Source: Peptoniphilus equinus
GTDB taxonomy: Bacteria > Bacillota > Clostridia > Tissierellales > Peptoniphilaceae
DNA length: 64,000 bases
Assembly: GCF_027921445.1 (NCBI RefSeq)
Contig: NZ_CP115667.1
Coordinates: 1,240,001-1,304,000, forward strand
Direction: 5' to 3'
The notes beneath the pieces are model-generated. The model saw only the letters and a list, made by a program, of their open reading frames with translations, was not told the origin of the DNA and did no database searches. Shown here one piece after another: positions 16,956 through 54,104 of the stretch (its first letter is position 1; the number at the start of each line of letters is the position of its first letter). A program made the translations under genes and the position numbers.

Positions 16956-17129
16956 ACTGTCTGATGGCCCTTGACACAACACGCCAAGCGTCCTTGACAG
17001 ACGACAGACGATAGGCATTGACGCCGTCCCTCGTAGGACTCAGGGCATACATGCCAACACGGATCTCCATACAGCACGATTAAAAAATGTGCCGAAGATA
17101 CAATGCAAGATCTCGATGTACACATACAC

Positions 17130-17160
17130 AACCACCGTTGACACGGTGGTTTTTCTTTTT
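17130..17160 (+). terminator. Intrinsic terminator of the salvage operon
   Basis: Stem AACCACCG (17130-17137) pairs with 17144-17151, followed by TTTCTTTTT. It also marks the left edge of the phage-derived AT-rich region. The stretch 16956-17129 holds no gene I can support. Confidence 0.82.
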
Positions 17161-17164
17161 GCTT

Positions 17165-17697
17165 CAAATGATTATCTGTCATCCCAAGCGATGGTGGACG
17201 ACACCATAAAAACCAATGTGGAATTCCATCACAAGTTGGGTCTTCGTCCTAAAATCGTACGAAAAGAAGCCGGAAACTGTTGCGATTGGTGCAAAGAAGT
17301 TGTAGGAACTTATGAGTACCCCGATGAGGTGCCGGACAATGTGTATAAACGGCACCGATTTTGCCGATGTACGGTGGAATGTAACCCGGGGGATGGCAGA
17401 CTGCAGAACGTGCATACCAAAGAATAGATAGATCCACAAAAAGATGATAAAATAAAAAAAGAAAGAAAGCTGGGTTGGTTTTTGATTTACAACTTTTTGG
17501 AAACAAGGATGCGGAAAAGCAATCAAAGCAGCAACTGAGAAAAGGTATCAATTCTTATATTAAATAAATAGAAGTTCATAAAGATAAAATCAAACACCCT
17601 GAAAAATACGATGTTCAATGGAATAGAAAGACGGACAAACAGAAACAAGGGTTAATTAAGCATTGGAATAAAGAAATTAATATTTTTATCAGAAAAA
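17165..17697 (+). pseudogene. Phage minor-head (MuF/SPP1 gp7-like) protein fragment with toxin-like tail, broken
   Basis: The open part (17165-17427) encodes RPKIVRKEAGNCCDWCKEVV, then RHRFCRCTVE and GDGRLQNVHTKE. This Cys-rich C-terminal motif of SPP1 gp7/MuF minor head proteins is well known. After the TAG at 17427, reading resumes at about 17478 with VFDLQLFGNKDAEK, a linker often seen before toxin domains in such proteins. A helical tail follows (EVHKDKIKHPEKY, KQKQGLIKHWNKEI), interrupted by a TAA at about 17563. The tail resembles C-terminal toxins of phage-encoded MuF proteins. The N-terminal two thirds of the parent gene is gone. Confidence 0.7.
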
Positions 17698-17738
17698 TAG
17701 TATATCATAGAATTAATTTTTTTAGGAGAGTGAGAATT

Positions 17739-17903
17739 ATGAATAATAAATTTTTAAAGTTAGCTATTTTAACTATTTACCTTATAGGTTTTATTTTAAT
17801 CATATTATCCAATATCTATAAAAATATAGGCTTAGCTAAAGTATCTATGGGATTTTACATTTTATTTGGATTAATTATTGTTTTTTCTTTTTTTAAAAAA
17901 TAA
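17739..17903 (+). CDS. Small hydrophobic protein, possible immunity protein
   Basis: A 54-residue ORF: a short charged start (MNNKFLK), then two transmembrane segments (residues ~8-25 and ~37-52) ending in KK. TAGGAG lies about 11 nt before the ATG. It directly follows the decayed MuF toxin tail, the position where immunity genes sit in polymorphic toxin cassettes. That role is inference from position only. Base composition is very AT-rich, like the rest of the island. Confidence 0.55.
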   Translation: MNNKFLKLAILTIYLIGFILIILSNIYKNIGLAKVSMGFYILFGLIIVFSFFKK

Positions 17904-17931
17904 TTTATATTAAGAAATATTGAATATTTTA

Positions 17932-17966
17932 AACACGGTTCTTGCGAAGCAAGAGTATACCGTGTT
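17932..17966 (+). other. oriT-like hairpin upstream of the relaxase
   Basis: A nested perfect inverted repeat: AACACGGT (17932-17939) pairs with ACCGTGTT (17959-17966), and inside it TCTTGC (17940-17945) pairs with GCAAGA (17949-17954). It is followed by ATGCTCTTAATAG. It lies 85 nt before the MobV relaxase start, the usual place for its oriT, and the GTGTTA-x-GCT stretch recalls the nick region of pMV158-type plasmids. Confidence 0.6.
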
Positions 17967-18050
17967 ATGCTCTTAATAGGATTATTTATTGGTTCGTGCA
18001 TTCTTAAAATGTTTGTGCGAATTTTTTATACAGTTTTTTAAGAGGTGTTT

Positions 18051-19129
18051 ATGGGAGTCTTTTCAGTTCATATGCAAAAATTTTCTACTGGAGACATTAA
18101 AGGTCTTGAGTTGGAAGTTGATCGTAAAAGTCAAAATTTAAAGAATCAGGATATTAATTATTCTCTTTCAGAAAAAATATTAATTTGGTCAAACCTAAAA
18201 TTAATTTATATTCTGACACTTTAAATAGAGTTGAGGCATTAAAAAAATTAGGCTCAAGAGTTCAAAAAAATTCTGTTACTTGTGCAGGATTTGTTTTTAC
18301 ACTTCCTAAAGATATTGAGAAGAGCAGTATTAACCAGGAGAAATATTTTAAAATCTGTGTTGAATATCTCCAGGATAAATTTAAAAAAGAAAATGTAATA
18401 CAAGCTACAGTTCATCAAGATGAATCAAGACCACATTTACACGTATATTTAGTTCCTGAAAATAAAGAAATTGGGAAATTGCAAGCTAGAAAAAGCCTTG
18501 ATAGGAATTTTTTAAATGACTTGCACAGTAAATTGCCTGAAATGTTAAATCAATCAGGATTTAATATTTCAAGAGGAGACAGTACAGATAAATACTATGT
18601 TGAGAACATTCATGACTATAAAGCTGCTATGAAAGAAATAGAAAAGCTGAAATTAGAAAAATTTGAGTTAAACAATACCATTAATGCTGAAAGAAAAACG
18701 TATATAGAGCAAATACATAGATTAAAAAACGACATAGAATTATTAAAAGCTGAAAAATCAGATATTAACGGCGCTATAGCTAAAGATAAGGCAGAATTTA
18801 AAAACATTAAAGACTATATATACAAATCTAAAGCCGATATTAAAAACTCTATATCTTATACTTCTATCCCTTTATCTAAAAATAAAGTAATAATCGACAA
18901 AAATTCATTTGAAAAAGTTGTTAGAGTTGCTAGAGATATCAAGTTACAAAAAGAATTAAAAAACAGCTTAGAAAAGCTGCTGTCAGATACCGAAAATCCA
19001 TTAAATATTTTGAGAGATTTAGTTAGAAATAATTTAGACATTAAACGCGACCTTGAACAAACACTTTCAGAAGCCATAGAATCGAATTTAAGGCTTAAAA
19101 AAGAATATAATGAACAATTATTTAAATGA
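18051..19129 (+). pseudogene. mob: MobV-family relaxase (Mob/Pre), frameshifted
   Basis: The start at ATG 18051 gives MGVFSVHMQKFSTGDIKGLE, the typical MobV N-terminus. That frame is lost near 18173-18180, and the protein resumes one frame over with LVKPKINLYSDTLNRVE. One missing A in the A-run at about 18170 restores a continuous product. The catalytic motif HQDESRPHLHVYLVP (about 18413-18457) is intact, and the C-terminal half is coiled coil. Intact protein would nick oriT and pilot mobilization. Either the gene is dead or the run was misread. It overlaps the next gene by 20 nt. Confidence 0.8.
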
Positions 19130-19497
19130 ATCTTTTAATGCCTTAAAAGGCAAATATGAGCGTTTAAACGATATTATAGAATCACAGTCTCGTGAAATTG
19201 AAAAACTCAAAGAAGAAAATCAAAATTTAAAAGTTTTGGCAGATAATAATGCAGAAAGTTTTAAAAATGTTGTTCAAGCTACTAATTGTTTGTTTGATTG
19301 ATGACGATGATTACAAAATAAATCTTGATAAAAAAAGAGTTAATCTCTTAAAGGCTATTGAAAAATATACTATTAAGTATTTAACTCAAGACGGATATTT
19401 AGATAAAGCTGATTTAGTAAAAAACAAATATGGAATATCTAAAGGCATTCAAAAAGAAATAGATACACTGTCTAAAAGTTATGATTTGGAGCGTTAG
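19110..19497 (+). pseudogene. Mobilization-accessory coiled-coil protein, frameshifted
   Basis: The first frame (from ATG 19110) gives a coiled coil with heptad-like EKLKEENQNLKVLADN and stops at 19301. The adjacent frame, open through 19497, continues in the same style (KRVNLLKAIEKYTIKYLTQD, KNKYGISKGIQKEID). The two halves fit one ~125-residue protein broken by an indel near 19280-19300. It overlaps the relaxase end, as accessory genes of MobV cassettes often do. Exact function unknown. Confidence 0.55.
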
Positions 19498-19511
19498 ATT
19501 TTATCTTTCAC

Positions 19512-19557
19512 CCTGGTAAGTAGTGAGATTTTATATAAAATCTCACTACTTACCAGG
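19512..19557. repeat. 46-bp perfect palindrome
   Basis: Two 23-nt arms with no loop: the first begins CCTGGTAAGTAGTGAG and the second ends CTCACTACTTACCAGG. It lies 14 nt after the accessory gene stop and is followed by CAATTTTTA, so it could end transcription of the mob cassette. The length and perfection exceed what a terminator needs. Confidence 0.9.
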
Positions 19558-19623
19558 CAATTTTTATATTCATTATAAATATTAAAGACAATGAAGACGA
19601 GTTGAAAAGGAGGTTAAACCAAA

Positions 19624-19830
19624 ATGATAAAAAATAATGATTGGAATTGGTCTGAAGATACTCTAAAAGCGATTATAAAAAACATAGTTGAAAGAAAAAA
19701 TGAGTATGTTGAAGAAAAAGACGGTTCCGATTATTCTTTAGGGGTCATAGACGGTTATGCCTTTATTCTAGATTCTATAAAAAATGAATTAGAGGCGAGA
19801 GGTTTTGATTTTGAAGAATGGATCAAATAA
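19624..19830 (+). CDS. Small hypothetical acidic protein
   Basis: A 68-residue soluble protein (MIKNNDWNWSEDTLKAII at the start, GFDFEEWIK at the end) with a mostly helical pattern. AAAAGGAGG lies upstream of the ATG and a terminator lies at its stop, so it looks like a complete, expressed unit. I do not recognise the family. It sits in the mobilizable-element remnant and could be cargo or an immunity-type protein. Confidence 0.6.
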   Translation: MIKNNDWNWSEDTLKAIIKNIVERKNEYVEEKDGSDYSLGVIDGYAFILDSIKNELEARGFDFEEWIK

Positions 19831-19868
19831 AAGCACAAACCGACGAATGTTGGTAGGTGCTTTTTTAA
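19829..19868 (+). terminator. Intrinsic terminator
   Basis: AAAGCAC pairs with GTGCTTT, with ACC/GGT inside, followed by TTTTTTA. A diverged copy in inverted orientation lies at 20561-20600. Confidence 0.8.
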
Positions 19869-19879
19869 TGTCATTAATC

Positions 19880-20009
19880 GCGAGTTAATCGTGTGACATT
19901 CGCACATAAAATCACACCTTTAGGAATTGACTATTTAACAGATAATTCGTTTTTAAACAAAGCGAAAGATTTTCTAAAAGACATCAAAGCTATTGTGCCT
20001 TTTGTATAA
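19880..20009 (+). pseudogene. YjcQ-like phage protein, C-terminal fragment
   Basis: The frame ending at TAA 20007-20009 reads HKITPLGIDYLTDNSFLNKA and then AKDFLKDIKAIVPFV. This is the typical C-terminal shape of YjcQ family proteins of prophages (IT-x-x-G-x-x-YL-x-x-NS). No start or N-terminal half is present. Confidence 0.5.
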
Positions 20010-20056
20010 AGTAGTGACCTGAGCACGTCATAAAACTGTTCGAGATGGAAGGGGCG

Positions 20057-20308
20057 ACCATGACAAAGACACCAAAAATTGGCAATCAGAACCCCACGCA
20101 ATCCATCATCCTACCCTACCGAACAAGTCGGTATCGTGACGCCATTGTCCTCTATGAGAAAGCGCAAAGAACTGCCCAACCGTGGCAAGTACAACTCTTA
20201 AAGCACATCTTAGCCATAAACGCGGACGGCCTTTGGACCCACACCAAGTCAGAATCATCTGCGTGGCGAAGCAGTTTGTTTAACTTGCTCATGGTACTGA
20301 TCTGCTGA
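20057..20308 (+). pseudogene. Phage terminase large subunit, N-terminal fragment
   Basis: The first ~60 residues (KIGNQNPTQSIILPYRTS, then YEKAQRTAQPWQVQLLKHI and NADGLWTHTK) match the N-terminus of phage terminase large subunits, which goes on to the Walker A ATPase region in intact genes. Here the match ends after WTHTK, and the last ~20 residues are unrelated, so the gene is cut off before the ATPase motif. Confidence 0.75.
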
Positions 20309-20404
20309 ATACACCAATAGTCATCATCCAATAAAGATCGGGGAACATCGTTTCAATCAACTGAAATCCTCCCCGACATTTTATCGTAATATGCTATTCT
20401 ATAC

Positions 20405-20488
20405 GTAAAAAGTAGGTCTTCCTCTCCCCGCCAAAGCTTACAGTGGGTAATTACGATAATTTGAGGGGGACGCCTACTTATTTTTTAT
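20405..20488 (+). ncRNA. Structured RNA candidate (type I antitoxin-like hairpin)
   Basis: AAGTAGG (20410-20416) pairs with CCTACTT (20473-20479). Inside it CTC/CCC-rich and GAGGGGGA segments can extend the stem, and ATTTTTT follows. The fold spans ~70 nt with a structured loop. T-runs on both strands make it usable in either direction. A -10-like TATTCT lies at 20395-20400. Structures of this shape flank small holin-like type I toxins in Firmicutes. On the complement a short frame ends KEHKK-stop just before it, but no full toxin is left. Confidence 0.4.
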
Positions 20489-20530
20489 GCTCTTTCATAT
20501 CAGTTGTCATGTTCAACCATAAATGCCACC

Positions 20531-20556
20531 ATAAAAAACACTCATTATGAGTGTTA
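20531..20556 (-). terminator. Intrinsic terminator
   Basis: AACACTCAT (20537-20545) pairs with ATGAGTGTT (20547-20555). On the complement it is followed by TTTTTTAT. Confidence 0.65.
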
Positions 20557-20560
20557 AGCA

Positions 20561-20600
20561 ATAAAAAGCACCTACTAACATTCATCAGTCTGTACTTTTA
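20561..20600 (-). terminator. Intrinsic terminator, inverted copy of 19829-19868
   Basis: On the complement it reads AAAAGTACAGACTGATGAAT then GTTAGTAGGTGCTTTTTATT. Base by base this is a diverged copy of the terminator at 19829-19868. It ends the immunity-like fragment whose stop is at 20598. Confidence 0.65.
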
Positions 20601-20716
20601 GTTTTCTACTATCTCATATAACTCCGGCGGATAAATATAGTCCTCTCTAAGACTCTCACTACTTTTATACAATTTAATGCTTGACCTTTTAAAATAGCTA
20701 TAATATCTACTTGCAC
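20598..20716 (-). pseudogene. C-terminal fragment of a small immunity-like protein
   Basis: The frame ending at 20598 reads LREDYIYPPELYEIVEN-stop. From memory, small (~50-60 residue) proteins of the type at 21337-21486 usually end in a YLYPPELFEIVE-like motif, and the gene at 21337 lacks it. Residues further upstream (about 20640-20716) do not match anything. No start codon or ribosome site is seen. 20717-20881 holds no gene I can support. Confidence 0.4.
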
Positions 20717-20881
20717 ACCCTTATTTAAATGGTGTTAAAATGTATAAATATAAAATAAACCCATGCAAAGTATCATAGTCGCATATTATAAATATTAAAT
20801 TAATTAACTATCATTACACGCTATTCAACAATTATAAAAAAGGTACATTATTTAACTTATAATTTGTCGAAACCACAAGTA

Positions 20882-21340
20882 TTATTCTTCAATCCTCAAG
20901 ATGCTTGGCTTTAATCGGCTACTGATAAATTTTATTATTTCTTTTTCTAACTCTAGATTATATTGTTGTAAAAATTCATATCCGTGTGCTTTGATTTTTA
21001 AGTATAGGCTATTTCCCTTCTTTTTTATTGTAATATTGCTTATCTCACTGTAAGGAACTGATAATATAACTATAGAATTCGCCATAAAAGAATTGAAGAA
21101 CTTTTCATTAATACCTATAGCTGAAAAAAAAGATATAAAAAAGACTGTTGCACTTAATAATGTTATAACTCCTAAAATAGATTTATCATTTATATACCAG
21201 ATTACAAATCCTACTACTAATAATAATAAAGTTGCTATGATAGAAGTTTTTGGTATGTTCGCCTTGAATAAATTATGTTTTCTCTTCATTAAATTATAGA
21301 TTATTATAATTAAAAACACTATGTTTACTAATATTTTCAT
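20882..21340 (-). CDS. Hypothetical membrane protein, toxin-cassette neighbour
   Basis: A 152-residue protein. Residues 1-17, ~33-50 and ~57-78 are hydrophobic (three membrane segments). The C-terminal ~60 residues form a soluble domain with the pattern VPYSEISNITIKKKGNSLYL, reminiscent of PH-like domains of small membrane proteins. GGAGG lies before the ATG, which overlaps the stop of the upstream 49-residue gene (ATGA). Its position after a MuF toxin remnant suggests an immunity or accessory role; this is inference. Confidence 0.6.
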   Translation of the reverse strand: MKILVNIVFLIIIIYNLMKRKHNLFKANIPKTSIIATLLLLVVGFVIWYINDKSILGVITLLSATVFFISFFSAIGINEKFFNSFMANSIVILSVPYSEISNITIKKKGNSLYLKIKAHGYEFLQQYNLELEKEIIKFISSRLKPSILRIEE

Positions 21341-21486
21341 AATCTTACCTCCAATTTCACAATGTCAGTAATTACTCCTTCTTCATCAATAATTCTATAC
21401 CAACCCTCTTCAAGGCTAATGACATCGTAAATGTGACTATTAATCATATATACCGGATCAGATTCACCAATATATTTAACTTTCAT
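21337..21486 (-). CDS. Small immunity-like protein (49 residues)
   Basis: MKVKYIGESDPVYMINSHIY is the start of a family of small proteins common in Firmicutes mobile islands, with the central motif SLEEGWYRIIDEEG also present. The end (ITDIVKLEVRL) differs from the usual acidic YPPELFEI-type end, so the C-terminus may have been replaced. The ATG lies within the last codons of the MuF-toxin remnant, and the stop overlaps the next gene, giving a tight toxin-then-small-gene order. Function is inferred only. Confidence 0.6.
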   Translation of the reverse strand: MKVKYIGESDPVYMINSHIYDVISLEEGWYRIIDEEGVITDIVKLEVRL

Positions 21487-22093
21487 TATCAAACCAACTT
21501 TTAACTTTCATTTTTACTCGTCCTGTTTGATCCGATTCAAACCAGTGTAATTCACATCTTCTATTACTATCTTTTAGCTTTATATACCCTTCCCCTCTGA
21601 CTTTCCTCCAGTCTTGCGATTGGTTGCCGTACTGCTTAGCTAAATATTGTGAAACTTTTACTTCTTTACTTGTTTGTCCACCCGCAAATACTACAACGTT
21701 AGTAATCTTAGTTCCTTCTGAAAGCTTTGCAAAAGTGCCATCAGATAACTTTACAGAGTCTCTAAACGCTGCTGCACTCAAACTTTTATGAATAGTTATA
21801 TCATCAAGATAACCTACTATCTCATTTTTTCAATATATTCCTTATACCACGCCTCATAGGTCATGTGAGCAGGTACTTTAATCACATGCCCCTCACCATC
21901 TTCTGCTGCTTTAGTACCGTCTTTATCCGCCCTATAGACGATGGTGGTTGAGCGGCATCGTGGTAGCATAGGCGGTGTTCAGTTGTTCACTGAGAAGCGT
22001 TTCGGCTTTTTTGTCTTGAGCCTGAGCGAGGAGGGCCATCTGTACCACGATTTCCGCTTCTATGGCTTTCAGTCGTGTGATACGCTGCCTCAT
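21476..22093 (-). pseudogene. MuF/minor-head phage protein with toxin-like C-terminus, decayed
   Basis: Three pieces of one parent can be read on the complement. First, ATG 22093 onward gives a helical N-terminal segment (MRQRITRLKAIEAEIVVQMA, LLAQAQDKKAETLLSEQL) typical of phage minor head proteins. Second, about 21830-21945 gives DKDGTKAAEDGEGHVIKVPA then MTYEAWYKEYIEK, the usual linker before the C-terminal domain, ending in a stop. Third, 21476-21829 gives the C-terminal domain (ITNVVVFAGGQTSKEVKVSQ, GEGYIKLKD, CELHWFE). The middle, with the Cys-rich motif, is deleted and a frameshift near 21830 separates the last two parts. Confidence 0.65.
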
Positions 22094-46672: not shown

Positions 46673-48637
46673 TTAATAGGAATACCATCCGTTCGGTTGA
46701 TACGAGTTGGTACGGGTCACGTTCATAACTTGAGTGACTCTACCTTGATAATCCAGCACGCCGGTGATTTCCAACACTTCACCTTGTCTAAAGGTGGTGT
46801 AGAGATCGCCTTGAAGATCAAACTGAGAGTAAGCGTTCAAGCGCGGGTTGTTGGAGCTTAAAATTTGCATGCTGTAGATATAGCCGGTAGCATTCGGTGT
46901 AGTTCCAGGGAAGGATATTTCACCATTATTGGTCCGAACGTTGAGCACTTTAGCTCGCACGATAAACTGATCGCTGCCGTTGGATTCCCGAATGACTGTA
47001 GCATAGTTGCCATTGCGTTCGACAACGACATAGCGATGCAACAGATTTTGCGGATTGTACTGATTGTTTAACAAGCCGCCCATTTCAAAACGGGTGGTGC
47101 TGTCCACATAGAAGCGTGTATCCATGCCGTTGCTGCGCACCGTCACTTCATAACTGTTCATGTAGCCGTTCCGTTGTACGTTGACGACTTGTCCGGCCAA
47201 TGTGGCGCCTTGGAAGTTGTCCACCGTCCCGGTGATGAGTTTATAGTTGGTGCTGAAGCTGACCTTTTGACCCACTCTCACGCCGTTAAATTGAGACGTA
47301 TTGCCATAGAACGGATTATAGTTATTGTACGTGTTGCCATAGAAAGTATAGTTCTTACCGTCTTGCAGCTTTAAGACAATGGTTTCCCGACCGTTGGTGT
47401 CCGCTTGTGAGATACTGACCACTTCGCCGTTAACACGACCGTTTCGCGGGAAAACTACCGCCGTTTTGACGGCGCCCTTAGCATCGGCACTGAAGAGAAT
47501 CATATCGTCCAGGTTCAATTGAGACGGTTGCGTCTCTACGCCGAGAACGTAGAGTTTTGCCCCTGATGCCATTTTAAAGTTACTGCTCATGGTTGTTGCG
47601 ATCGTCGTGGCCCCGGTGAGATCCATGGTCGTCGTGGCTTTAGTGTACTTGGCACTGAAACCGTCAGTCGTCCGGGAGGTGATATATCCGGCATAGTCTT
47701 GCGCGGAATTGACCACGTCCAGAGTGGTGATGACATTGCTGCGGGATGAGTTGGTGCTTGTCACATAGGTGATCTTCACGTCCTGATCCGCTTTAATATC
47801 ACTAAAGGCAATCGTCTTGCCATTTTCTTTGTAGACGGTTTTGCTGTCCACTTTCAGTTGCAGCTGTGTCTTGTCTTTCTTCTCAATGATAATGCTGTTG
47901 ATACCGTTGGCTTTCGTAGCGAGAACGACTGTCCCTTCCACTGTCGCCGTTTGACCTTCATCAGCTAAATAGTCATAGGACAGTTTGGTGATCTTAGCCA
48001 TTTCACTGCGGCGAATATAACGCGTACCTTCAAACTTGCCGTCGGATCCTGTCGATGCAAAGATGCCTGCTTTGACTAAGCTGGCCAGATAGCCTCGCGT
48101 CCCGGCAGGAATGCGGTCTTTGTCATCGTGACGAAGGAGCGACTGATCGCCGTTGGCATCCAGACCCAGTCCCCGTCCGAAATAGACGGCAATCGAGTTG
48201 CGATCCGGATGAATTTTGCCTTCGCTTTCCACAAAGAATTTTTTGTCTGCCATTTCAGACAGTTCACCGGTGGTGACCACGCCTTTGGAGAGTGCATAAG
48301 CCACAGCATCTTCTGCCCATGACGCAATGCCTGCTGCACGGATGTTGCTGCTGTACTTACTGCGAGCCTCGGACAATTCCGACGCAGACGGATTGTTGAG
48401 TTCTTTAATGAGCTCCAACGTTTCTTCCACGCTCACAGAATTATCCGGTCTGAACGTATCATCGCCGTAACCTTTGATGATCCCTTGGTCACTAAGTGTG
48501 TCTATATATGAGTATGCCCAGCTGTAAGGACCATCCTTTGTTACGTCTTTAAAGGTTTTTGCTTGAAGTGCACTTGGCATCAGCACAACGGCTGTCAATG
48601 CCACTGCCAAAGTTTTTTTCATGTGAATGGATTGCAT
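46673..48637 (-). CDS. S-layer-homology-domain surface protein
   Basis: A 654-residue exported protein. Residues 1-26 form a signal peptide (KKTLAVALTAVVLMPSALQA). Residues ~27-225 hold about three SLH modules (FKDVTKDGPYSWAYSYIDTL, GYGDDTFRPDNSVSVEE; WAEDAVAYALSKGVVT; RYIRRSEMAKITKLSYDY), which anchor proteins to wall polysaccharide. The rest (~230-654) is a run of beta-rich repeats with many Asn/Tyr/Gly near 420-440 (NTYNNYNPFYGNTSQFNG). AAAGGAGG precedes ATG 48637. This is probably a major surface protein. Confidence 0.88.
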   Translation of the reverse strand: MQSIHMKKTLAVALTAVVLMPSALQAKTFKDVTKDGPYSWAYSYIDTLSDQGIIKGYGDDTFRPDNSVSVEETLELIKELNNPSASELSEARSKYSSNIRAAGIASWAEDAVAYALSKGVVTTGELSEMADKKFFVESEGKIHPDRNSIAVYFGRGLGLDANGDQSLLRHDDKDRIPAGTRGYLASLVKAGIFASTGSDGKFEGTRYIRRSEMAKITKLSYDYLADEGQTATVEGTVVLATKANGINSIIIEKKDKTQLQLKVDSKTVYKENGKTIAFSDIKADQDVKITYVTSTNSSRSNVITTLDVVNSAQDYAGYITSRTTDGFSAKYTKATTTMDLTGATTIATTMSSNFKMASGAKLYVLGVETQPSQLNLDDMILFSADAKGAVKTAVVFPRNGRVNGEVVSISQADTNGRETIVLKLQDGKNYTFYGNTYNNYNPFYGNTSQFNGVRVGQKVSFSTNYKLITGTVDNFQGATLAGQVVNVQRNGYMNSYEVTVRSNGMDTRFYVDSTTRFEMGGLLNNQYNPQNLLHRYVVVERNGNYATVIRESNGSDQFIVRAKVLNVRTNNGEISFPGTTPNATGYIYSMQILSSNNPRLNAYSQFDLQGDLYTTFRQGEVLEITGVLDYQGRVTQVMNVTRTNSYQPNGWYSY

Positions 48638-48781: not shown

Positions 48782-50317
48782 ATGAGATACTTACCTATCA
48801 GTTTGGATACGAAAGAGCGCAACGCGCTGGTCCTTGGCGGAGGCCTTTTGGCATTCGGCCGCATCAAAGATCTGTTGGCGACGGATTACCAAGTCTACGC
48901 CATTAACGAGTCTTTTGTCGAAGATATTAAAAAATTGGACGACAACCCTCAGCTCCATTTAAAAGAGCTCGTCCTCGACGACAGCTTTGAATTCTTCGGC
49001 TATGACTTTTTAGTCATTGCCACGTCCAATTTTGAATTGAACAATACGTTAGAGGACAAAGCCATGAAGAAAAACCTCCTCTACGAGCGTTGTGATGTGA
49101 CCCACGACTCTACCGCACGGATGAACACAGTCGTTAAAAATGACGTCCTCTCCGTGGCCCTTTTGGATAACACCACCAACCCTGTCATCACAAAGATTAT
49201 TGAAAAAGATGTCAAAGAACTTCTGGACAGTTACGATGCTGAAAAAATTACCATTCTCAATGCCATCCGCGGTGAGCTGCTGCGCAAGAATGCGCCGAAC
49301 ATCGACGCCACTATTGAGAAGCTCTACTATGAAGAAAAGATTACGGCGAAGGACTTCTATCACGAGCTGACCGAGGACGCCGTCTCCACATCTGAGACAG
49401 AAACGCCAAAGGTCGACGTCGAACCGGTGCCCGACGACGTGGCTGAAGCCATGAAGGAAGACATTATCAACACTTCCGGTGCCCTCTATAAAGAGAAAGA
49501 AGCCTTGGAACACGACGCCGAGCATGACGAAGCGTCTCAGACCGCGACGCCTGAGCTTCATGAGCCGCCAGCCTATCAAACCACCCTCCGCTCACAACCG
49601 GAAGATGTAGCGTCAACGGAGATTCCCATCACCGATTACAAGATGCCACAAGCCACGACGACCTTTGACGACACCGCCTATACGGTAACGACACAAACCG
49701 GTGATGCCCCGCTCTTTGTGGGTGCTGAACCTCTTGAGCTTTCTGAGGACACCGATGCAGCATTTGAAGCCCGCCGCCGTGAACGTCTGGCCCGCCGGGA
49801 AAAGAAACATCGTCGCCACACTGCAACCGTTACACCACCAAGCACACCCCACGACCCGTCAGCTAAGAAAGACAAAAGCCTTGGCACCAGTTTAAAAGAA
49901 CTCTTCGGATTTGGCGATGACGACGAAACCGACACACCGACTCACCTCGACAAGCCAGTACCGCCAACCTCCCAACCGAACCCCGCAGATGAACCTGTCA
50001 TGCCGTCAAGCTCTGTACACCGTGACAGTCTTCTTGACGCTGAGCCTACGCCAACGGAGCAGCCTCTGGAAGTGGATACCTTCGGTATCAAGCCGCCACA
50101 TCCGGCCTCTCGCCGTACCATGTCCGATTTTATCTCCGAAGGCGAAGCGTCGAAACACCACCAAGACGCTCACGTCGAAAATCCAACGCCGTCCTTTAGA
50201 GAGCGGTTCACCACAGAAAGTATGGAACACACTTTTGATGATGCCAAATCCAAATTCAAAGGCTCTTGGGCCAAGTTCCGAAAATCCATCGGTATCGGCG
50301 ATGACAACGATAAATAA
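48782..50317 (+). CDS. Siroheme-synthase-like Rossmann domain with long disordered tail
   Basis: A 511-residue protein. Residues ~1-190 look like the NAD-binding precorrin-2 dehydrogenase/ferrochelatase part of CysG/Met8: MRYLPISLDTKERNALVLGG (with the GGGLLAFGR loop), DFLVIATSNFELNN (~77-90), then SVALLDNTTNPVITKIIEKDV. The following ~320 residues are Pro/Thr/Glu/Asp-rich and probably disordered, broken by a basic patch (RRRERLARREKKHRR, ~330-345) and ending in an amphipathic stretch (FRERFTTESMEHTFDDAKSK). No siroheme genes lie nearby, so a siroheme role is unsupported. GAGGTGACAAC precedes the ATG. Such a fusion is unknown to me. Confidence 0.7.
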   Translation: MRYLPISLDTKERNALVLGGGLLAFGRIKDLLATDYQVYAINESFVEDIKKLDDNPQLHLKELVLDDSFEFFGYDFLVIATSNFELNNTLEDKAMKKNLLYERCDVTHDSTARMNTVVKNDVLSVALLDNTTNPVITKIIEKDVKELLDSYDAEKITILNAIRGELLRKNAPNIDATIEKLYYEEKITAKDFYHELTEDAVSTSETETPKVDVEPVPDDVAEAMKEDIINTSGALYKEKEALEHDAEHDEASQTATPELHEPPAYQTTLRSQPEDVASTEIPITDYKMPQATTTFDDTAYTVTTQTGDAPLFVGAEPLELSEDTDAAFEARRRERLARREKKHRRHTATVTPPSTPHDPSAKKDKSLGTSLKELFGFGDDDETDTPTHLDKPVPPTSQPNPADEPVMPSSSVHRDSLLDAEPTPTEQPLEVDTFGIKPPHPASRRTMSDFISEGEASKHHQDAHVENPTPSFRERFTTESMEHTFDDAKSKFKGSWAKFRKSIGIGDDNDK

Positions 50318-50322
50318 AACAC

Positions 50323-50356
50323 TAAAAAAGAGATAGGTCATGCTATCTCTTTTTTA
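50323..50356 (+). terminator. Intrinsic terminator
   Basis: AAAAAGAGATAG (50325-50336) pairs with CTATCTCTTTTT (50343-50354). It ends the 48782 gene. Confidence 0.88.
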
Positions 50357-50559
50357 GTAGACTTAAATTTACACGCTACGTGCAACCTTAAAACAAAACC
50401 TTAACCTACTACAGAAATTATGCTAAGCAAAAAATCTCTGGTTAGGCCGAGGTTTGCGTTTAGCCTTAGTATTAAAACCAATGGTAAAGTTTACGATCCA
50501 TTTCAAAAACAGCGGAATGTGTTATTCTGTTTAAATATCTTCCAGATAAAATCCCGGAG
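50357..50559. other. AT-rich stretch with no intact gene
   Basis: About 200 nt. A frame fragment (GKVYDPFQKQRNVLF) is visible near 50480-50530 but is broken. It could be the remains of the 5' part of the 50560 gene. Confidence 0.3.
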
Positions 50560-50898
50560 ATGATTACACAACTTAATATAACAGATGTAGACCTTTATAA
50601 TCTGAGTATTATCGGGGAGAATGTTTACATTACGAGCGAGGACGATGAGTTTCTCTGCTACTATCCAGAAAATTTTAGATTTTCCAAGAACCCCAATAAA
50701 AGTGTAACTATGATAGCGGACGGAAAATTATATCTGTCTGACTGGGTAGAAGAAGGCTGGGACAATGGAAACGACTGTGCAACCGAAGAATATAAATATT
50801 ATGAAAAAGTGATTGTGAGAGATTTTAATGGAACTGTTTTATCAGAGACGCTCGGTTGCTTGCAACAGCGCCCAGATGGAACATGGTGGATAGCCTAG
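50560..50898 (+). CDS. Hypothetical acidic protein, accessory island
   Basis: A 112-residue protein with no recognised family. It reads as a beta-rich, acidic small protein (SIIGENVYITSEDDEFLCYY, GTWWIA end). CCCGGAG precedes the ATG. The same frame is open upstream to about 50490 (KYLPDKIPEM just before it), so the gene may once have been longer. Its size and neighbours (lipoprotein, small stopped gene) resemble immunity-gene islands. Confidence 0.45.
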   Translation: MITQLNITDVDLYNLSIIGENVYITSEDDEFLCYYPENFRFSKNPNKSVTMIADGKLYLSDWVEEGWDNGNDCATEEYKYYEKVIVRDFNGTVLSETLGCLQQRPDGTWWIA

Positions 50899-51014
50899 AA
50901 TTAATAAATATCCATAAGAAAAATTATGCGCATCATAATCACTGACAGTTGCCTATGTGAAGCAGTATACTTTGGTTAGTCGAAGCTAATCGAAGGGAGA
51001 AGAACTTTAATTGG

Positions 51015-51222
51015 TGGTTTTTTATTTTTAGGTGGAGTTATAGGCGTTAGTATTATGTTTGCAGTTGCGGCAATCAATCCAGTAGATAGTTGGATTACTC
51101 CGCCAGGAAGATATATTTACACTATGTTAGATAGGGCATTGTGGTTTCCAGCAATAATTTTTTTATTTGTTCTCATCCTTGGAGCGGTTATTCTTGTGTG
51201 TGACTACAAGAATAACCAATGA
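51015..51222 (+). pseudogene. Small two-helix membrane protein without a normal start
   Basis: The frame reads IGGFLFLGGVIGVSIMFAVA, a soluble loop (PVDSWITPPGRYIYTMLD) and a second membrane helix (WFPAIIFLFVLILGAVIL), ending KNNQ-stop. No ATG/GTG/TTG lies in frame before the first helix. AGGGAGAAG precedes a TTA-ATT instead, so the start codon seems to be lost. Confidence 0.4.
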
Positions 51223-51272
51223 AGAAAAAGTTGAAGTAAAAAAATGAAAATCAGGATTAGAGGCGGTAAGGT

Positions 51273-51650
51273 ATGAAAAAGATAGTAAGTCTATTTATGT
51301 TATCAATTTGTATGATGGGATTGGCTGCGTGTAACGATACTACCGATACTTTGCATTTAGGAGTAAATGCTGCTATTGCAGAGCTTGATACAGAAAGGTT
51401 GCAAATCACTGTAAACGGTACAGATGCAGATAGCTTTTTAGGAGAAGGATGCGTTATTTCTTGTGATGATATTCCTATGATTTATTACAATTACAAAAGT
51501 GGTGAAGTGAAGCAGATTTCGATTCAAGACTTACAAGTGGGTGATAACATTATTTTGGGAATAAGAGATTCCGAAATAAATCATTTCCTTGATGATAAAG
51601 GTACGTTGAACATCGAACAATTACAATTAGGGACCCAAAGGCTTAATTAA
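51273..51650 (+). CDS. Small lipoprotein
   Basis: A 125-residue lipoprotein: signal peptide MKKIVSLFMLSICMMGLAAC with the lipobox LAAC (Cys20). The mature part is a small beta domain (LQITVNGTDADSFLGEG, KQISIQDLQVGDNIILGI). No named family. GGCGGTAAGGT precedes the ATG. It sits in an AT-rich accessory patch. Confidence 0.6.
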   Translation: MKKIVSLFMLSICMMGLAACNDTTDTLHLGVNAAIAELDTERLQITVNGTDADSFLGEGCVISCDDIPMIYYNYKSGEVKQISIQDLQVGDNIILGIRDSEINHFLDDKGTLNIEQLQLGTQRLN

Positions 51651-51672
51651 ATTAGAATTTATGGAGGTATAC

Positions 51673-51864
51673 ATGAGAAAATAATTTGAAATAAAGGGTT
51701 GTGTTGAGGTGTCACCAGAAGTGACAGAAGATGAATTTTGGAGAGAGTTTATCGGCTTTGTAGAGTCTACCGGCTGGAGTTTTGGCGGTGGGATTACCGA
51801 AATCCAAGATGGCTACTATATTTTGTCCAACAGAAGCAGTGGTTCTTCTGCGTTGGATGATTAA
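51673..51864 (+). pseudogene. Small hypothetical gene with TAA at codon 4
   Basis: ATG AGA AAA TAA, then an open frame: FEIKGCVEVSPEVTEDEF, FVESTGWSFGGGITE, GYYILSNRS. GGAGGTATAC precedes the ATG. The rest of the frame resembles a common small protein of Firmicutes islands (the FVES-x-GW-x-FGGG pattern), so one codon change has stopped it. No in-frame start downstream would spare much of it. Confidence 0.6.
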
Positions 51865-51944
51865 AACAGCTTTACAATTTACGGTTTATCGGGGAGATAG
51901 CAAATCCAGTCAGGCCAGTTAACAGTCAAGATTAACGGCGCATA

Positions 51945-52345
51945 AATTCGCCACCGTTGACAGTCCCGCCGCCTTTGCTGATGGGTAATCAAGGCGAGAA
52001 AGCCCTAAAACGGCTTCCCGCCCATTTCAGTTTTTTATGGAAGTGCAGCTACACGTTCGGGACAATTTGTCCCGAAGTCCAGCGTGGAACGAAAGACGGG
52101 GTGCCATATACACCCTATCTGCTGATGAAAACAGCCCTGCACTTGCGGCTCCACGCCACGCAATTACAGCACTGTTTTCCTGCCGCTCCAAATGCCCTTG
52201 CCCTCCCCGGCAGCAACGACATTTTCACGGCAACGCCGACAGAGCGTATAACACACTACACTTTGCAAGCAAAGTCGTGTGCCAAGGGGCAAGCCCCTTT
52301 GGAAACCCCGGACAACAAAACAGGCTGAATATCTCGCACTTCCCC
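51945..52345. mobile_element. ICE remnant with oriT-like hairpins
   Basis: A GC-richer block inside AT-rich DNA. It carries ACTTTGC-AA-GCAAAGT (52260-52275) and GGGGC-AA-GCCCC (52286-52297) followed by TTTGGAAACCCC. From memory this motif pair is typical of the mobilization/oriT region of Tn1549-like conjugative elements. No intact gene is left: frames across it have no ribosome site. Both flanks are unrelated, so it is probably a deletion scar. Confidence 0.4.
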
Positions 52346-52497
52346 GGTGCTTGATACTCAGCCTTTATTTGTTGTCAGCAGCCCCCGTTTCGTGGTCTGC
52401 GTGTAGTTCCTTGTAAACTGACCTAAATCATCTTACAGCATGTAAATCAATTTCCGTTATACTGAAAGAACTCATAACTACTACCTAACTATTGAAC
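52346..52497. other. Short stretch with no gene
   Basis: Holds no supported gene. It joins the ICE-like block to the M23 gene remnant. Confidence 0.3.
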
Positions 52498-53370
52498 TTA
52501 GTTATTCGAAACAGTTTGACCTCGATGGATATACTGACACCTATCACGATGTGTTTTTTCTTCCGGCAAAACTCTGTCATCATACTGACTATGATTTACA
52601 GTTTCTGCTATTTGTAAATTTTCAAAACAAATTGGTATGCCCGAAGAAAAGATAAAACTCTCTTTATTTTGTATTTGAAAGTGAAAATGCGGCTCTGTAG
52701 TATTGCCTGAATTCCCACATAGTGCTATTTTTTGTCCTCGTTTAACTTTTTCATTTTCTTTGACGACGATACTATGTGGTTTTAAATGTCCGAAAAATGA
52801 ATACTCGTTATCCTCATGTTTGATAATAATATAGTTCCCTGCCAAATTTTTTACTAAAGGATCCGTTTCATTGTTTTTCATAATACTTGAATCTTTTTGA
52901 TGATTATAAATTTTCACAATCATACCATCAGCAGGAGCTAAAATGTCTTCCTCATAACAATAATATGAATTTAAATCCATTGGATCTCCTGAGTAGCTTT
53001 TTCCATTTTGATCCAACTTAATGAAGTCATAAGCATATCTTTGTCAATTAATAGACCACGAATGAGACAATGGCTTGGTTACCCCTCCATTTATTACAAC
53101 CCACTTACCTTTGAAGGGAAGAGAATACTTTATTTTCCCATTATAATGCTCTAAGCTGGGTACCGGCTTATCAATAATAGGTGTTATGAGCATTGATAGT
53201 GATTGTTCAAGTAACTGTATAGTTACGGGAAGTTTCAAAAGTAATTCTAAAATGGCAAATAACCAAAATAACCATAAGATTTTCCAAATTAAATGATCTG
53301 ATATAAAAATCGGAAGTCCTAATAAGCCAAGCCATTTTAGTTTCTCTATAATTTTAATAAATTTTCTCAT
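52498..53370 (-). pseudogene. M23 metallopeptidase with in-frame TGA
   Basis: One frame from ATG 53370 to 52498, broken only by TGA at 53044-53046. The N-terminal ~70 residues hold two membrane helices (LGLLGLPIFISDHLIWKILW and a following hydrophobic stretch). Then come LPFKGKWVVINGGVTKP and SHSWSIN-stop-QRYAYDFIKLD, with the first zinc motif (His...Asp) straddling the stop. Later motifs GHLKPHS and EPHFHFQIQ (HxH) are intact. Intact protein would be a membrane-bound LytM-type endopeptidase. Without readthrough only the membrane part is made. Confidence 0.75.
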
Positions 53371-54104
53371 TATAAATCTCCGCCTCTCCTCTTAGGCAAT
53401 CGAAATAAAACCCTCTTCTATTGCCATTCAGAAAACATCATTAATCTTCCATGCAAGAACAAGTGGTGGATTATATTTACCCTTTTTCAAATTTCCGGTC
53501 GTCTCTCATCGGACTTTCACTTTTTTGCTACGTCACTTTGGGATGTCATATAAATAGTTCTACATTCTTCAATACTATTTCAAGCCTCTTATTTATGTGC
53601 ATAGTATGCCCTAAATACTCAGCAATCTCCAAACTGCATGAACCAGTATCTTCGGCTCATATACGAATCCCTTAATAATCCTCTCGGATATAATATCTCT
53701 ATCCGGTGTATTTTTCATTCTATATGATCCTTCTTCCTAGACTATTAGATTGATGATAGTTTGAATTGCATGCCCGATAGTTCTCGCTTCAGAGCTGCTA
53801 ATTCAAAAAGTATATAGAATTCTATATACTGAATCCTCAACTGCTTGTGCAGGTATTTCAGCCCATTTTAATAGCGGTGTAAGTGCTTCAGCTATTTTCG
53901 CATAATACTTTCCAACTCGTACAGTAATATCACCAACAACATATTCTTCACTAAGTTAACTATTTCATCTCGTATTATTTTATGTCTGAACAACGCTATT
54001 TATAGTACGGAGGTGATTTTTTGATATAACCTTTGTTGCTTACTTGCCTGCCAGGTAGTTTTTTGTTTTGTTCGCAAGCGAACTCAACTGACTAAAATCA
54101 TAAT
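53371..54104. other. Decayed AT-rich region
   Basis: About 730 nt without an intact gene. A 50-codon minus-strand fragment (53804-53955) reads EYVVGDITVRVGKYYAKIAE then TPLLKWAEIPAQ, stop, and looks like the end of some larger protein I cannot name. Other frames (such as 53451-53675 plus) have no ribosome site. Confidence 0.4.

Follow-up and report, generated by a model that had tools for sequence, protein, structure and literature searches.

A SirC-like protein with a disordered tail in Peptoniphilus equinus: a siroheme-making enzyme that very probably outlived its pathway

Why would a bacterium with no visible tetrapyrrole pathway keep a protein domain of the kind that makes siroheme? The question is raised by the chromosome of Peptoniphilus equinus (GCF_027921445.1), in which a stretch of 64,000 nucleotides (NZ_CP115667.1, positions 1,240,001 to 1,304,000; hereafter the window, whose coordinates are used throughout) carries a gene for a protein of 511 residues at 48782-50317 (+ strand, ATG start, stop codon included). 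The gene consists of a SirC-like domain followed by a long tail. A preliminary description of the DNA had recognised a siroheme-synthase-like N-terminal domain and a disordered tail, and proposed that the domain had been reused outside siroheme synthesis, as a sensor or scaffold. Our analysis indicates that a siroheme-making enzyme very probably outlived its pathway and acquired a new function.

The open reading frame (ORF) is exactly as described, and a ribosome-binding site, GAGGTG, lies a few bases 5' of the ATG. Residues 1-200 (48782-49381, +) form a domain of the SirC/CysG-N/Met8 type: residues 7-111 match the Pfam family NAD_binding_7 (36.1 bits, with a cut-off of 22.1), a sequence search against solved structures matches SirC (3dfz, E 2.9e-7) and CysG (1pjq), and a profile of the family matches SirC at 4.6e-20. 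The AlphaFold model of the protein, made with 32 sequences, has a confident domain at about residues 11-200, where the predicted local distance difference test (pLDDT) is mostly above 90 from residue 11, and it combines the Rossmann domain and the helical dimerisation domain that mark this fold. Foldseek returned SirC, CysG and Met8 as the top matches of the domain model; the match to SirC spans the whole domain (target-normalised template-modelling score 0.75), and CysG was matched in its N-terminal module. The three motifs previously singled out are present, namely the GGG nucleotide-binding loop (residues 19-21; 48836-48844, +), VIATSN (residues 78-83) and SVALLDN (residues 124-130). The curated NCBIfam cut-offs for siroheme enzymes were not reached (63 vs 181, 53.7 vs 400, and 35.5 vs 62.3 bits). 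Since the protein stays below these cut-offs and its genome has no visible pathway to supply the substrate, we do not class it as a precorrin-2 dehydrogenase. Its fold and ancestry place it in the SirC/CysG-N superfamily.

The missing pathway was sought in the whole host genome, a single contig of 1.709 Mb that is 99.5% complete. The searches were run family by family, with well-known genomes as positive controls, and detected no porphobilinogen deaminase (HemC), no glutamyl-tRNA reductase (GlutR), no sulfite/nitrite (siroheme) reductase and no cobalamin riboswitch. Nor was a uroporphyrinogen methylase recognised among the two tetrapyrrole-methylase-family proteins of the genome. One is RsmI, with its C-terminal domain; the other has 275 residues (L034:1255-2082, - strand; G000:C1 near 1179601), shows the methylase domain in Pfam and no MazG, and, read by eye, appears to be YabN-like and not a uroporphyrinogen methylase. 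With HemC, GlutR, the methylase, the reductase and the riboswitch all undetected, there is no visible route to precorrin-2. The second NAD_binding_7 match in the genome turned out to be TrkA. No tetrapyrrole genes lie near 48782-50317, as had been noted, and the proposed reuse outside siroheme synthesis withstood this genome-wide search for the pathway.

How the gene came to stand alone is suggested by its relatives. These were found with an alignment of the domain; a search with the full protein, whose patterns came partly from the fast-evolving tail, gave none. A homologue is present in 43 of 101 genomes, that of P. equinus included, and no relative was found in the plasmid records searched. 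Two kinds of neighbourhood occur. In the pathway-positive Peptoniphilaceae the gene encodes a protein of about 200 residues and lies within hemA-sirC-hemC-cobA/hemD-hemB-hemL, often next to an S-layer-homology (SLH) gene (we named the hem genes by eye from the representatives of their clusters, and Pfam confirmed HemC). In the second kind the hem genes are gone, and the remaining gene, hereafter the orphan, usually still adjoins, where examined, the same SLH gene. In the window this neighbour, kept across the family, is divergent from the orphan (46673-48637, -). Beyond it, loci of the second kind often have the same tcdA-like, pcrA-like and ligA genes, and in two intermediate loci (L055 and L056) only hemC and cobA/hemD remain after the sirC-like gene. 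We considered a functional link to the S-layer protein, but the SLH gene directly adjoins the intact hem operon in several genomes as well, and the adjacency is therefore explained by shared ancestry.

We counted SirC-like genes in the 109 genomes of the family that are 90% complete or better: 28 adjoin HemC and 27, from 7 genera, belong to HemC-less genomes (27 of 77). Four genomes have an orphan together with an operon copy (G029, G037, G039 and the less complete G060), while G030, where the SirC-like copy and HemC are on separate contigs, was left unclassified. Orphans have the longer open frames (median 274 vs 209.5, Mann-Whitney p 6e-8), in a comparison whose rows are related and whose frames may take in upstream codons. 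In G037, the operon copy (L064, G037:C42:20906-21484) carries an in-frame TAA that could be a real loss or an assembly error, and the orphan is intact. At L059 and in G108, G109 and G120, the frames that contain hemC are 780-801 residues long, which suggests a hemC-cobA/hemD fusion in genus g24.

The orphans may have one or two origins. Peptoniphilus and Anaerosphaera contribute 28 orphans, which form one clade (support 99/99), and the four from genomes with both copies form a separate one (100/99). The two are joined weakly (65/62) in a tree without L107, a tail-less orphan with a very long branch that is placed elsewhere. With L107 included, a single origin of all orphans has a p value of 0.06 in the approximately unbiased test.

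The pairwise ratio of nonsynonymous to synonymous rates (dN/dS) is 0.008-0.13 for the domain across 12 orphan pairs and 0.08-1.3 for the tail, with several dS values near saturation. The values for the domain indicate that the orphan N-terminal domain is under strong purifying selection. We then compared 32 orphans with 12 operon copies of the same clade (the Fisher p values treat related rows as independent) at the residues that in CysG contact sirohydrochlorin and at the catalytic Asp104 (PMC7018833). Its counterpart, Asp105, and the nearby Arg103 (49088-49096, +) are each found in 32/32 orphans, for 6/12 and 5/12 operon copies, respectively; the orphans are thus stricter at the Asp104 position than the presumed working enzymes. 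Arg163 (49268-49270, +), the counterpart of the ring C/D ligand Arg162 of CysG, is kept in 30/32 orphans and 12/12 operon copies, and the Pro133 position is mostly kept in the orphans. At other contacts the orphans vary: the N101 position is Glu, Gln, Tyr, Leu or Met, the G130 position is Lys or Arg in most, and a basic residue is found at the K27 position in 16/32 orphans vs 11/12 operon copies and at the R137 position in 5/32 vs 8/12. The protein of the window is a mild case. Its DNTTNP (residues 129-134; 49166-49183, +) is an altered version of the tetrapyrrole loop S128-G-G-T-S-P133 of CysG (alignment and PMC7018833), and Glu102, Thr131 and Glu141 depart from CysG, while Arg27 and Lys138 keep the charge, a basic character at positions 27 and 137 that is mostly lost in other Peptoniphilus orphans. 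Near-invariant and orphan-specific positions include Y39, I41, K61, F71, R93, Y101, R103, Y151 and N170. On the cofactor side, G19 and G21 of the GGG loop are present in 32/32 orphans and G20 in 31/32, and an acidic residue occupies position 43, where the second strand ends, in 28/32 orphans vs 3/12 operon copies. In Rossmann folds, an acid at this place favours nicotinamide adenine dinucleotide, NAD(H), over NADP(H).

The tail (residues 201-511, 311 residues; 49382-50314, +) contains 10% Pro, 12% Thr and 20% Asp+Glu and is predicted to be mostly disordered (pLDDT mostly below 50) except for three helices, at residues 219-241 (low confidence), 323-347 (pLDDT about 82-94) and 478-502 (about 72-84). 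The second is basic (49748-49822, +), in agreement with the Pro/Thr/acidic tail with a basic patch that had been described. The long tail is confirmed, with one qualification: nearly all orphans have acidic tails (L101 deviates in charge, and L107 is tail-less), but a length of 311 residues is peculiar to the window species, other orphans having roughly 25-156 and most about 25-90. Tails in the genus of the window have 133, 139 and 311 residues and a common end, K-[FL]-K-x-[SG]-W-x-K, in P. equinus, P. asaccharolyticus and P. indolicus; the region between the domain and this motif has freely diverged. Species of the P. harei group have similar tails. In the window, the C-terminal helix and the acidic end (50213-50314, +) hold the motif as K-F-K-G-S-W-A-K, Trp-centred as in the relatives. 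An internal stretch, KSLGTSLKELFGFGDDDE (residues 365-382; 49874-49927, +), resembles by eye both the end of the same tail, KSKFKGSWAKFRKSIGIGDDN, and the N-terminus of SepF from the same genome, MDKMKNIFGFSENDYD, a likeness that passed no significance test. SepF is a type of protein anchored to the membrane by an N-terminal helix.

The loss of the pathway around a retained gene, the purifying selection and the altered substrate-site residues together give good support to reuse, and it is highly likely that the orphan domain now serves outside tetrapyrrole synthesis. That it does so with NAD(H) binding kept is probable. If the domain has been reused, we give roughly equal weight to an enzyme that depends on NAD(H) and to a sensor or scaffold that reads it; an enzyme acting on a new substrate would account for the invariant Asp105 and Arg103 no less well than would the redox or iron sensor or scaffold suggested earlier. 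Tethering to a membrane by the tail may occur, with a chance that we put slightly below even. As a whole, the account that a dehydrogenase of the siroheme pathway was recruited, either through duplication or ahead of the loss of the pathway, to a tail-tethered and NAD(H)-dependent role unrelated to tetrapyrroles has in our view an even chance of being right. The gene of a SirC-type precorrin-2 dehydrogenase would have stayed beside the SLH gene while the other genes of the tetrapyrrole operon disappeared. Its domain would still bind NAD(H) and form a dimer in the manner of SirC, and the pocket, which in CysG receives a tetrapyrrole with eight carboxylates, would take another ligand, probably touching Asp105, Arg103 and Arg163. 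The tail would be a flexible tether, whose basic Trp-centred end, perhaps with helix 323-347, would in the genus of the window keep the domain on the membrane or on some other polyanionic surface.

Several observations weigh against this account. No convincing SirC-like gene is present in 50 of the 77 HemC-less genomes, and because these lost it the new role is not general in the family. The sequence of the window protein is compatible with a tetrapyrrole-like ligand, as it keeps Arg27, Lys138, Pro134, Asp105 and Arg163, and the operon copies of the family also differ from CysG at the contacts N101 and R140. Finally, the tail had been said to have an amphipathic end: a helix is indeed predicted there, at residues 478-502, but the helix moment of the tail is not exceptional, its maximum being equalled or exceeded by 134 of 500 shuffles.

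We weighed three other explanations. The orphan could be a metal-binding or metal-delivery protein that retains the chelatase side of the ancestral activity. The presence of Asp105 in all 32 orphans would fit, but there are no metal genes nearby, the orphan invariants include no cluster of Cys or His, and metal has been argued to enter only after the tetrapyrrole is bound (PMC7018833); we find this unlikely. It is less likely still that the protein works as a precorrin-2 dehydrogenase, and perhaps chelatase, on a precursor scavenged from neighbouring bacteria or from the host. The catalytic Asp and Arg163 are kept and the SirC fold is complete, yet we detected in the genome no methylase making precorrin-2, no known user of siroheme and no cobalamin riboswitch, the tetrapyrrole contacts are eroded across the orphans, and four genomes hold an operon copy in addition to the orphan. 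A decaying relic of the lost operon with a tail grown by drift, to which the missing pathway genes, the fast evolution of the tails (dN/dS up to about 1.3) and the long branch of the tail-less L107 might point, is largely refuted by the purifying selection on a domain that is intact in 27 HemC-less genomes, has new invariant residues and is kept even in genomes with a working operon elsewhere, and we consider it most improbable.

If the orphan domain has been reused, this family would be a clear example from nature of an enzyme that persists after its pathway has gone, maintained by strong selection in at least 7 genera, and with some genomes that have both a working and a reused copy. With such paired copies one can ask directly which residue changes give a tetrapyrrole dehydrogenase a different role. 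There is also a practical consequence, as a name taken from the domain alone (siroheme synthase, precorrin-2 dehydrogenase) would wrongly attribute siroheme synthesis to anaerobes with no visible tetrapyrrole pathway. Our literature search found no paper on the orphan SirC-like family, which is no proof that none exists.

The gene looks like a single-gene unit divergent from the SLH gene. A terminator-like inverted repeat (50320-50359) directly 3' of its stop has a 17-pair stem and was scored on the - strand, a T run also ending the + strand. Just downstream, positions 50500-54000 are mostly low in guanine plus cytosine (GC; 32-40%, with one bin of 49% at 52000-52500) and hold small, unassigned ORFs and an M23 peptidase ORF. 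Another low-GC stretch, at 17000-22000 (28-36% vs 47% for the window), is probably the remnant of a mobile element; its ORF at 18185-19129 resembles a fragment of a plasmid-mobilisation relaxase (MobV/Pre-type). The genome of the window has about 47% GC, vs 31-33% in the matching region of the congeners P. asaccharolyticus (L076) and P. indolicus (L077).

Among known systems, SepF of the same genome resembles the tail in a short amphipathic stretch, rich in Lys, in which FGF precedes acidic residues, a likeness seen by eye over about 15 residues and short of demonstrated homology. SirC, the precorrin-2 dehydrogenase of Bacillus megaterium (3dfz), is alike in its whole-domain fold, profile match, GGG loop and domain length. 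However, the domain of the window is only about 21% identical to it, SirC has Ser at the position of Asp105, and SirC is tail-less and serves a siroheme pathway, whereas the protein of the window is tailed and its genome has no detectable one. The N-terminal module of CysG (1pjq, 6p5x) shares the fold, and its Asp104, Pro133 and Arg162 have counterparts in the orphans; in contrast, CysG has a methylase module where the orphans have a disordered tail, and its N101, G129, G130 and R140 are not kept in them. The closest working relatives are the operon copies of the Peptoniphilaceae (e.g., L061, L063 and L104), which in some genomes occupy the same chromosomal place but differ in having about 200-240 residues, little or no tail, a position beside hemC, and few of the residues that are invariant in the orphans.
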